Of a stretch of 64,000 nt of DNA, positions 20,045 through 23,292 are shown one piece after another. Under the pieces are notes generated by a model. That model had not been told where the DNA came from and searched no databases. It worked only from the letters and a program-made list of their open reading frames with translations. The stretch is taken from contig CANQOQ010000009.1 in NCBI GenBank assembly GCA_947625495.1, forward strand, positions 1 through 64,000, in the 5' to 3' direction. Each line of letters begins with the position of its first letter. The first letter of the stretch is position 1. This DNA is from Candidatus Gastranaerophilales bacterium (GTDB lineage: Bacteria > Cyanobacteriota > Vampirovibrionia > Gastranaerophilales > Gastranaerophilaceae). The translations under genes were made by a program, and so were the position numbers.

Positions 20045-20136
20045 ATAGAAAATAATATATGTAAAAATGATTTATTTTTCAAATTCTTCTAATTTTAATT
20101 TTAAGTATCTGTATTTGAATTTTTTATTTCTATATT

Positions 20137-21009
20137 TTAATTTACCCCCCCCACAAAGAGATTAGAGATAAATCTGTAATAATAATACTTAAAATAAATT
20201 ATGTGCCTAATTTTGTATAAACTAAAATATTCTTTTAAGGTATTTTTTATTGTATTTGGAAGGGTATTTTGAAGTGTATTCCGAATTGTATTTTCCATCT
20301 GGGTAATTTTCTTGCGCATATAGTTTACGGTTTCGGGGGTGTAGTATAAATCTTCTATAATAGGATAATACAGTTTTGTATTTCCGTTAAATCTTTGAGG
20401 GATTGCGGGATTTGTAGGATGAATAAAATTACAATAGATTACATATACGTTTGGAGTCAGTTCTGTTGAATCATACTTATCAATTTGATAATTGGGATTA
20501 TTAACAATATAAAAGAAATCTATTATTTTATCGGGGTACTTGTTTTGAAGTTTAACCTGCTGTTCAATTAAATAATCATTTTTAAATCCCATATCATAAG
20601 CAAAAAATACGAATAAAATACGATTAGATTTATTAATTGAGTTGTATAGCCGTTCCACTCTCCTTAAATATCTTTCCTTAACCTTAGGATATACTTCGCT
20701 TATCGGTTTGTCCGCAGGAAAATCATGCTTGTATCTCAAACCTGTTCTTTTATTTATGACACATAAGCTCTTTACATCATCTACCGTATTTCTGCCTTTA
20801 TTATCAAGGTCTTCAAGTTCAAAAAAGTCCTTAAATCCGTTGATTATTAAATCGACTTTTCCTTCAAGTCCGCCTTTACCGCATATTTCTGGTATAACAC
20901 CTCCGCACCAGTCAAAAGGAAGAGTTTTCTCCTGCAGATGACATGCTCTTAATGCATTACTGGTTGCACAATGCTCTCCCAAAGAAATAACTAAATCATA
21001 ATATTTCAT
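20137..21009 (-). CDS. DUF1796 (putative papain-like cysteine peptidase) protein, copy 1, with 3' poly-G tract
   Basis: A 290-residue protein with the DUF1796 hallmark SLGEHCATSNALRACHLQ, then PFDWCGGVIP; the conserved Cys may be catalytic but the activity is unproven. Such genes are common in capsule and surface-polysaccharide loci. It is a tandem paralogue of 21122-22024; the last ~25 residues (YKIRHIIYFKYYYYRFISNL) are identical while the rest has diverged. A G8 run lies in the coding strand six codons from the stop. One extra G would replace -VN-stop by a 24-residue extension (GKLKYRNKKFKYRYLK...) ending at 20072. AAGG precedes the ATG. Confidence 0.82.
   Translation of the reverse strand: MKYYDLVISLGEHCATSNALRACHLQEKTLPFDWCGGVIPEICGKGGLEGKVDLIINGFKDFFELEDLDNKGRNTVDDVKSLCVINKRTGLRYKHDFPADKPISEVYPKVKERYLRRVERLYNSINKSNRILFVFFAYDMGFKNDYLIEQQVKLQNKYPDKIIDFFYIVNNPNYQIDKYDSTELTPNVYVIYCNFIHPTNPAIPQRFNGNTKLYYPIIEDLYYTPETVNYMRKKITQMENTIRNTLQNTLPNTIKNTLKEYFSLYKIRHIIYFKYYYYRFISNLFVGGVN
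20145..20152 (-). repeat. poly-G tract (G8 on coding strand), candidate phase-variation site
   Basis: Eight consecutive C on the + strand, in otherwise AT-rich DNA, inside the 3' end of the DUF1796 copy 1 gene. G9 opens a downstream frame; G7 gives an immediate stop. Confidence 0.8.
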
Positions 21010-21121
21010 ATTTTCTGCCTTATAATATTTATGTACGTTTTATATTGTTAATTTTTTTCACCAAGATATTCTTCTAATTTTGATTTTAAAAATTTATATT
21101 TATATTTTTTATTTTTATATT

Positions 21122-22024
21122 TTAATTTACCCCCCCCCACACAAAGAGATTTGAGATAAATCTGTAGTAATAATACTTAAAATAAATAATATGCCTAATT
21201 TTGTATAATTTGAAAAAATCTTTTAATTTATTGTTAAAGGTAATTTCTAAATCTGATAATTTCTTGTTTAATTTTGCGGAAATAGAAATCTCACTGTTAA
21301 AGTCTTTTTCAAGAGCTGTTAATTTCTTTCTGATAAAATTGATTGTAGCGGGTGTAAAAAAGTTTTCTTCTAATATAGGATAATATAATTTTGTGTTTCC
21401 GTTCCAATCTTCAGGACTGACAGTACTTGTCGGATAAATAAAGTTACAGTCGATTCTTATTACCTGCGGTGTGATTTGGTACATATCATATTTGTCAATT
21501 TTATAGTTACTGTTATTCATAACGTATAAAAAATCGATAATTTTATCAGGATACTTCTTTTGTAATTTTTCCTGCTGTAAAATTAAAAACTCATTTTCAA
21601 AGTTACCTTCTCTTGACATATAAACAAATAAAATACGATGAGAATTGTTAATTACTTCTAAAAGGCGTTTAGCTCTTCTGTCATATTTATTTTTAACTTC
21701 AAGATACGAATCTTCAATAGTTTTACTGGAATGGAAATCATGTCTGTATTGCAGACCTGTTCTTTTGTTCACAATCCATAGATTTTTAAAATCATCTTCT
21801 TTGTTATTGCCTCGATTTTGTAAATCTTCATATTCAAAAAAATGTTCAAAATTGTTTAAAATAAGATCTACTTTGCCTTCAAGTCCGCCTCTGCCGCACT
21901 TTTCAGGAATAACACCTCCTGACCAATCAAATACCATTGAAATATCTTGTAATTTGCATCTTCTCAATGCTGTTGAAGTTATACAATATTGACCTAAAGA
22001 AATTGCTACATCGTAATATTTCAT
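21122..22024 (-). CDS. DUF1796 (putative papain-like cysteine peptidase) protein, copy 2, with 3' poly-G tract
   Basis: A 300-residue paralogue of the adjacent gene, sharing MKYYDVAISLGQYCITSTAL, VFDWSGGVIPEKCGRGGLEG and the C-terminal YKIRHIIYFKYYYYRFISNL. An in-frame TTG lies at 22036, but GGAG at 22031-22034 is spaced six bases from the ATG at 22024, and the paralogue starts at the same residue. A coiled-coil-like insertion around 235-265 distinguishes it from copy 1. The G9 run near the end shifts between a short tail (WGGVN) and, with one more G, an extension of about 30 residues ending at 21048. It follows the GT2 gene by 18 bases, so the three genes probably form one operon. Confidence 0.82.
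   Translation of the reverse strand: MKYYDVAISLGQYCITSTALRRCKLQDISMVFDWSGGVIPEKCGRGGLEGKVDLILNNFEHFFEYEDLQNRGNNKEDDFKNLWIVNKRTGLQYRHDFHSSKTIEDSYLEVKNKYDRRAKRLLEVINNSHRILFVYMSREGNFENEFLILQQEKLQKKYPDKIIDFLYVMNNSNYKIDKYDMYQITPQVIRIDCNFIYPTSTVSPEDWNGNTKLYYPILEENFFTPATINFIRKKLTALEKDFNSEISISAKLNKKLSDLEITFNNKLKDFFKLYKIRHIIYFKYYYYRFISNLFVWGGVN
21130..21138 (-). repeat. poly-G tract (G9 on coding strand), candidate phase-variation site
   Basis: Nine consecutive C on the + strand at the same relative place as the tract in the neighbouring paralogue. G10 would open the conserved extension. Confidence 0.8.
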
Positions 22025-22042: not shown

Positions 22043-23221
22043 TTATACTGTGTAAGTATTCTGTTTTTGTATTTTTCTCTTTGAAAATCTGATTCTCGGA
22101 ACTATTTTTCTTATTAACATATATATACATTGAAGTATAGACAGATTTCTTGCTTGTTTATTATAAATGTGTTCTTTCCAATTTTCTTTCTCTTTTGGCA
22201 ATAAATATGAATAAATTTCTCTAAATTCTTTTATTCCGAATCCGAATTTATCTTCCAGCTTTTTTTTCATATTTTCATCTTGTAAGAGTTCATATAATTT
22301 CTGATTTCCGATAATTTCTCTTGTTGGAATTTGGTCTTTAAAATAATCAAATCTATGGTAATAAGTAAGAGAAGCATAAAAATATGCAATTATAAACGGA
22401 ATAAATTCAACATCATTTTCTTTAAGAAGTTTTGAATATGTACAGGGACAAAGTTTTTTTACCAAATTAACATTTTTTATTTCAAAAAATATCGGGAGCA
22501 GCTCGTATAATTCAAACCAACCTTGTTTACAAGCTTTTGGTGCATTTTTTATACTTGAACTTTGATAATCTGAAATTCTGTAATCTATTATTGATTTATT
22601 TATAAAACCTATTTTTTTATTTTTTATTAATGCACTGACCCATAAATGAACATCAAAAAGCATTACAAAAGTTTCATTGGGGATAACCGTATCGAAAAAG
22701 TCTTTTTTCACCATTGCCGTGGGGTATGCCAAATGAGAGTACCCTTTGAAAAAAGCCAAAAGGGTTTTTTCTTCATCATTATTAAAATTTACTTTAGGAA
22801 TATCTTCAGACCATTTTACGTGCAAATCTTCTCTGTTTTCCGATATAAAATCCATATCAGCGAATACCATATCTTTATCAGGATGATTTTCCATATAATC
22901 AACAAGAGTTTCAAGACAATCTTCCTTCATAATATCATCTGCGCACAATAATTTTACATATTTACCTTTCATTAACGGTAAAGTTATCTTGAGATTATAT
23001 CCGCTTCCTCCGCCTAAATTTTCTTTGGCATTTACGTGCTTTATTCTGGCATCTTTATATGAATGAGCTATTATCGGGCAATTGTCAGTTGAATCATGAT
23101 TGAACAAGAATAATTCCCAATTTTTATATGTTTGATTTATTACGCCGTCAATAGCATCTTTTAAAAATTTTTCATCGTTATAATAAGGAATAAAGACCGA
23201 AATTAATGGATTATCCGTCAT
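22043..23221 (-). CDS. family 2 glycosyltransferase
   Basis: A 392-residue GT-A enzyme, probably building or decorating a surface glycan. Seen: PLISVFIPYYNDEKFLKDAI, INQTYKNWELFLFNHDSTDN, LGGGSGYN, and LCADDIMKED, the likely DxD-type metal site (ADD). The C-terminal ~150 residues are helical and basic, ending without a clear membrane anchor. It heads the probable operon with the two DUF1796 genes. No normal ribosome site is seen; the upstream region holds G8A7 followed by TAGAAT and the ATG, so promoter and start lie unusually close together. Confidence 0.88.
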   Translation of the reverse strand: MTDNPLISVFIPYYNDEKFLKDAIDGVINQTYKNWELFLFNHDSTDNCPIIAHSYKDARIKHVNAKENLGGGSGYNLKITLPLMKGKYVKLLCADDIMKEDCLETLVDYMENHPDKDMVFADMDFISENREDLHVKWSEDIPKVNFNNDEEKTLLAFFKGYSHLAYPTAMVKKDFFDTVIPNETFVMLFDVHLWVSALIKNKKIGFINKSIIDYRISDYQSSSIKNAPKACKQGWFELYELLPIFFEIKNVNLVKKLCPCTYSKLLKENDVEFIPFIIAYFYASLTYYHRFDYFKDQIPTREIIGNQKLYELLQDENMKKKLEDKFGFGIKEFREIYSYLLPKEKENWKEHIYNKQARNLSILQCIYMLIRKIVPRIRFSKRKIQKQNTYTV

Positions 23222-23239
23222 GGTATATTCTATTTTTTT

Positions 23240-23247
23240 CCCCCCCC
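23240..23247 (-). repeat. poly-G tract upstream of the GT2 gene
   Basis: Eight C on the + strand (G8 then A7 on the gene strand), 18 bases before the GT2 start. All three upstream frames stop, so it cannot switch translation; it would act on transcription. Confidence 0.75.
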
Positions 23248-23292
23248 CTATCCTTTAGTTACTCCATGATATTATAAAAAATCCAAATACGC

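Follow-up and report, generated by a model that had tools for sequence, protein, structure and literature searches.

What do two runs of G contribute to a pair of tandem genes that, as assembled, both stop a few codons behind such a run? In the window, i.e. the whole stretch of 64,000 nucleotides of Candidatus Gastranaerophilales DNA that was analysed, two DUF1796 genes are encoded on the minus strand, copy 1 (20137..21009; 290 aa) and copy 2 (21122..22024; 300 aa, with the ATG at 22024). Both proteins exceed the gathering cut-off of PF08795 (23 bits) with scores of 51.3 and 46.7 bits, respectively. We take this family to be putative papain-like cysteine peptidases, the family name being itself a prediction. 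A G8 tract (20145..20152, minus strand) is found in copy 1 and a G9 tract (21130..21138, minus strand) in copy 2, and in both frames (290 and 300 codons) the onset of the tract lies about five codons ahead of the present end. The assembled proteins terminate in NLFVGGVN (copy 1) and NLFVWGGVN (copy 2). With G9, copy 1 would end on ...VGGGKLKYRNKKFKYRYLKLKLEEFEK and comprise 312 aa; with G10, copy 2 would end on ...WGGGKLKYKNKKYKYKFLKSKLEEYLGEKN and, counted from the ATG given above, comprise 325 aa. The hidden extensions that are out of frame at present occupy positions 20072..20143 (KLKYRNKKFKYRYLKLKLEEFEK) and 21048..21128 (KLKYKNKKYKYKFLKSKLEEYLGEKN) of the minus strand, in each case with the stop codon included. 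Each gene can be read in three frames, yielding 288, 290 or 312 aa for copy 1 and 298, 300 or 325 aa from the ATG for copy 2, and a one-base change of the tract alters the C-terminus but otherwise keeps the protein. When the frames were re-read from the sequence, the preliminary description of G8 and G9 runs at the two 3' ends, where one added G opens extensions that are alike, proved correct.

Annotation of the proteins adds little to the Pfam assignment. Searches of the DUF1796 proteins against the PDB by sequence gave no match and those against NCBIfam no family, and DUF1796 was not mentioned in the literature searched. The predicted structure of the long form is of low confidence (mean pLDDT 56), and a fold search with this low-confidence model retrieved no structural match at E < 0.001. 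A further DUF1796 gene in another genome (G002 C11, 5934) has a C9 tract in mid-gene; with C8 it would comprise 262 codons, with C9 it meets a stop at codon 140.

Comparison with a related species indicates that the hidden extension is very probably real coding sequence. A syntenic DUF1796 pair with 87% identity to that of the window is present in G026 (Candidatus Gastranaerophilales, CANQCO01, isolate Lapin-005__bin11; locus CANQCO010000022). Copy 2 of G026 has a G9 tract but not the two additional bases found before the tract in copy 2 of the window; it therefore reads through into KLKYKNKKYKYKFLKSKLEEYIGEKT, giving a protein of 324 residues. Copy 1 of G026 carries G9 and an extra A behind the tract, so that it is in the third frame with the extension intact, and G8 would be needed for the long form. 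Small indels next to the tracts thus set the frame in the four copies of the two species, three of which are out of frame and one of which (copy 2 of G026) is in frame. The extension frame is free of stops in all four, including both copies of G026, where stops in close homologues had been sought. Between the species, dN/dS of the extension amounts to 0.09 in copy 1 and 0.16 in copy 2, with about 0.07 in the gene bodies. These ratios are well below 1, as would be expected of the coding frame that the preliminary description had proposed; since the stretch is short and the substitutions are few, they are suggestive at most (P 0.04-0.13 upon randomisation of the extension substitutions) and were not accepted as stand-alone evidence. 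It is the in-frame orthologue, the four stop-free extensions, the body-like dN/dS and the match to a module of other proteins (see below) that together make a strong case for coding.

The bodies of copy 1 and copy 2 are only about 60% identical whereas their 3' ends are nearly identical, which makes gene conversion of the ends likely. Judging from these alignments, both gene conversion and constraint seem to have kept the 3' ends alike. The earlier caution that part of the similarity may simply stem from duplication was therefore apt; yet duplication is not the whole cause, because the extension is conserved between species. The tail-bearing DUF1796 pair is rare: of 41 genomes of the genus, G026 alone shares it with the window genome, and a scan of the named genomes with the alignment returned the G026 record as the sole match.

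By sequence comparison, the extension is identified as the second half of a terminal module that is carried by predicted surface-glycan enzymes of other genera. With the terminal 52 residues of the long form as query, C-terminal ends of long frames from other genera of the family were retrieved, among weaker hits. In a profile search, nearly all further cases start the module 43-52 residues before the C-terminus. Its consensus is roughly K-Y-x-x-Y-[RK]-[ILF]-[LI]-[SK]-N-[IL]-[TV]-[FV]-G-K-x-K-x-x-Y-K-x-K-K-x-K-Y-K. The bearers of a C-terminal module in other genera include GT8 proteins, polysaccharide pyruvyl transferases (PS_pyruv_trans), radical SAM proteins and SDR proteins; some GT-D, CDP-glycerol transferase and hexapeptide proteins carry it at the N-terminus instead. 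A profile built without DUF1796 sequences scored window copy 2 at 29.1 bits in the extended and 16.5 bits in the truncated form, and one of 5000 shuffled extensions reached 29.1 bits. The first half of the module, likewise a profile hit, lies at 20146..20220 in copy 1 and at 21140..21208 in copy 2 (LYKIRHIIYFKYYYYRFISNLFV), both on the minus strand, and is always translated. In the DUF1796 genes, the central glycine of the module is specified by the G tract. Consequently, the aromatic first half is always translated and it is the basic second half that would be switched. The module lies outside the Pfam domain and is absent from the other DUF1796 proteins of the genus; with the module profile, no gene of the window genome besides the DUF1796 pair was matched. 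Tracts occur at the module elsewhere, too, namely within the module of a GT-D protein from G220 (G10) and directly behind it in G065 (C11) and G058 (a 12-base tract), a hint that this arrangement arose more than once.

The tracts of the pair belong to a larger set. Dinucleotide shuffles of the window led to an expectation of 0.08 G8 matches versus five observed (in three tracts), and the window contains no G/C run of 6 or 7. Throughout the 1.88 Mb genome we counted 40 G/C runs of at least 8, composed of two of 8, twenty-four of 9 and fourteen of 10, but none of exactly 7. Such a gap at length 7 is expected from selection for slippery tracts. The window shuffles and the run-length distribution of the genome rule out a chance origin of the tracts. 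An Illumina poly-G artefact was likewise rejected, because the tracts are internal, coding is continuous on their flanks, and the same sites are found in an independent MAG. Loss of mismatch repair is not supported as their cause either, since mutS1 is intact in the genome (867-codon frame, 924 bits). The distribution of G9 tracts is patchy, with 0 to 63 per genome within the genus, and a second genus of the family has many of them, too.

As judged by inspection, the tracts are concentrated in surface and defence genes, with contexts comprising glycosyltransferase, acyltransferase, LicD, pyruvyl-transferase, TPS-secretion, Kelch and DNA-methylase genes. For many of the coding tracts, one base more or less determines whether the product is full-length or truncated. 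Two genes with G9, for a pyruvyl transferase (409 aa) and a family 9 glycosyltransferase (383 aa), are in frame in the assembly. The genes for a family 4 glycosyltransferase and a cytidylyltransferase are out of frame with G10, and G9 puts them in frame. Several tracts, their contexts read by eye, have a TTGACA or TTGC-type -35 element on one side and a TATAAT-like -10 element on the other, and the genes behind them code for Kelch-repeat proteins, radical SAM proteins and others. Overall, the set fits the content of classic contingency loci.

Some further tract-associated loci were observed. Three tandem acyltransferase paralogues (G000 C8:13604-15861) each have a G9 or G10 tract at about codon 186-191, and in the assembly just one of the three is in frame. 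A promoter-like unit, TTGC--C G9 TAAAAGTGGTATAAT, recurs and precedes Kelch-repeat proteins in several cases. In very large proteins (2302, 2418 and 1028 aa) with N-termini that are alike, G9 tracts are positioned about five bases before or around the start codons. A G10 tract (G000 C13:25135-25144) is located 43 bases ahead of a gene for an N6 DNA methylase, which could possibly be a phase-variable methylase (phasevarion).

The window harbours a third tract next to the pair, a G9 run (23240..23248, minus strand) that precedes, by 18 bases, the start codon of a gene for a family 2 glycosyltransferase (22043..23221, minus strand; PF00535, E 4.8e-22). This putative expression-modulating tract probably adjusts expression of the glycosyltransferase. 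The preliminary description had regarded the DUF1796 proteins as products of a surface locus, and this can be upheld in part: the adjacent glycosyltransferase and the tail shared with glycan enzymes speak for it, but most other neighbours are housekeeping-like, and the DUF1796 proteins are probably cytoplasmic enzymes. Their putative link to surface glycans is based on that glycosyltransferase and the shared tail. In G026 the glycosyltransferase beside the pair is replaced by other genes (C22 11834-16139 vs window 22047-23277), which, as judged from their sequences, resemble McrC-type and McrB-type genes and a gene for a WYL-type regulator. The position next to the DUF1796 pair may thus be an exchange site, as this gene replacement suggests.

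Several processes could account for a conserved tail behind a G tract. If the tail had been lost, the tracts would be fixed frameshifts and the extensions decaying remnants that are still alike through gene conversion and recent ancestry. Such a loss would accommodate the out-of-frame state of three of the four copies as well as 3' ends that are nearly identical despite the divergent bodies, as from gene conversion. We consider it improbable, because decay is at odds with an intact extension in every one of the four copies, with an amino acid replacement rate similar to that of the bodies, with the one copy that is in frame, and with the match to a module of unrelated proteins; nor would it lead one to expect 40 like tracts in the genome and not a single run of 7.

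Still less credible is a fixed tract from which both forms arise concurrently, at a set ratio of long to short product, by RNA polymerase slippage or ribosomal frameshifting. The long frame is indeed just one base from the assembled frame in three of four copies, but tract length and flanking bases vary between the species and change the shift that would be required, and the genome-wide set includes apparent promoter spacers, where recoding is irrelevant. We are just as sceptical that the target is the next gene and not the tail, the choice of frame tuning coupling or polarity. The copies are co-directional, and about 38 bases separate the end of the long frame of copy 2 from the start of copy 1, compared with about 112 for the short frame; this idea, however, leaves unexplained the amino acid conservation and the module match of the extension as well as the like arrangement at the end of copy 1.

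We consider it likely, with good confidence, that the two tracts are simple-sequence contingency loci of the C-terminal phase-variation type, whose state would switch within the population. Slippage in the G run would shift its length by one and thereby pick one of three downstream frames. In one of these, each DUF1796 protein would gain 23-26 lysine- and tyrosine-rich residues and the module would be complete; in the other two, a stop would follow within a few codons, leaving the aromatic first half only. Switching inside the population would be reversible. The composition of the tail and its occurrence on glycan enzymes invite the guess that it anchors the enzyme to the membrane or to a glycan-assembly complex, in which case switching would alter the surface polysaccharide of individual cells. 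The alternative frames, the module, its conservation and the naturally in-frame orthologue are observed. Switching by slippage we infer from the frame differences between the species, the genome-wide tract set and the unequal lengths of orthologous tracts in the window genome and G026, which are 8/9 at copy 1 as well as 9/10 and 10/11 at two further sites whose flanks are up to 98% identical, all remaining tract pairs being equal in length and MAG consensus lengths for G8-G10 tracts being liable to err by one. Against it we counted that G8-G9 sits at the short end of the range for efficient slippage, that MutS1 is intact, and that no genome of the genus but G026 shares the pair. On balance, the preliminary interpretation was largely right, and the in-frame orthologue and the identity of the hidden tail reinforce it.

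A wider proposal, which we put forward tentatively and hold to be less probable than not, is that in Gastranaerophilales a shared, exchangeable module is the target of slippage. Tracts would have arisen repeatedly in or behind it, and the tail would reversibly retune unrelated glycan enzymes, none of which is switched off. If true, C-terminal phase variation would be aimed at a common targeting module and not at each protein's own end.

Campylobacter and Helicobacter possess poly-G contingency loci, in which G/C tracts with a length of about 8-12 occur far above chance in an AT-rich genome and reside in surface-glycan and modification genes. The tracts described here resemble them in length, excess over chance and gene content, but belong to a different phylum and coexist with an intact MutS1. 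In Helicobacter canadensis, where Snyder et al. call the mechanism 'C-terminal phase variation', eight genes have 3' poly-G tracts and variation of tract length in reads was shown (PMC2823697). As in the DUF1796 pair, a 3' poly-G tract gives three alternative C-termini there, which measure between a few and some 20 residues; that genome also has tracts in promoters and in 5' coding regions, and the genes are often in or near a glycosylation cluster (PMC2823697). The tracts of Helicobacter canadensis are G10 or longer and vary in reads (PMC2823697), whereas the G8 and G9 tracts reported here are known from assemblies. A further difference is that we deal with two tandem paralogues, one frame of which completes a module shared with other enzymes. 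For Neisseria gonorrhoeae, C-terminal phase variation by 3' tracts that switch the encoded C-terminus has been proposed, and G8 tracts are stated to vary in other genes (PMC5320596); short tracts can thus switch. The gonococcal cases concern pilin, mafB and a membrane protein, and in some of them one frame fuses the gene to the next one (PMC5320596), which does not apply here.

As a mechanism this is established; what is new is the lineage, together with the shared module. In the literature searched, no paper linked Melainabacteria, Gastranaerophilales or Vampirovibrionia with repeat-mediated phase variation, apart from co-mentions that were incidental to judge by titles and abstract openings. 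Phase variation by repeat slippage has mainly been described in mucosal pathogens and commensals that are cultured. The lineage considered here, uncultured gut bacteria beside the Cyanobacteria, has some 40 tracts in surface and other genes and has retained MutS1. Since the tracts are unevenly spread among relatives, origin and loss of such a repertoire become open to comparison. Moreover, the hidden frame is recognisable as one half of a module, which makes it possible to test, and not just to guess, what a C-terminal switch does.
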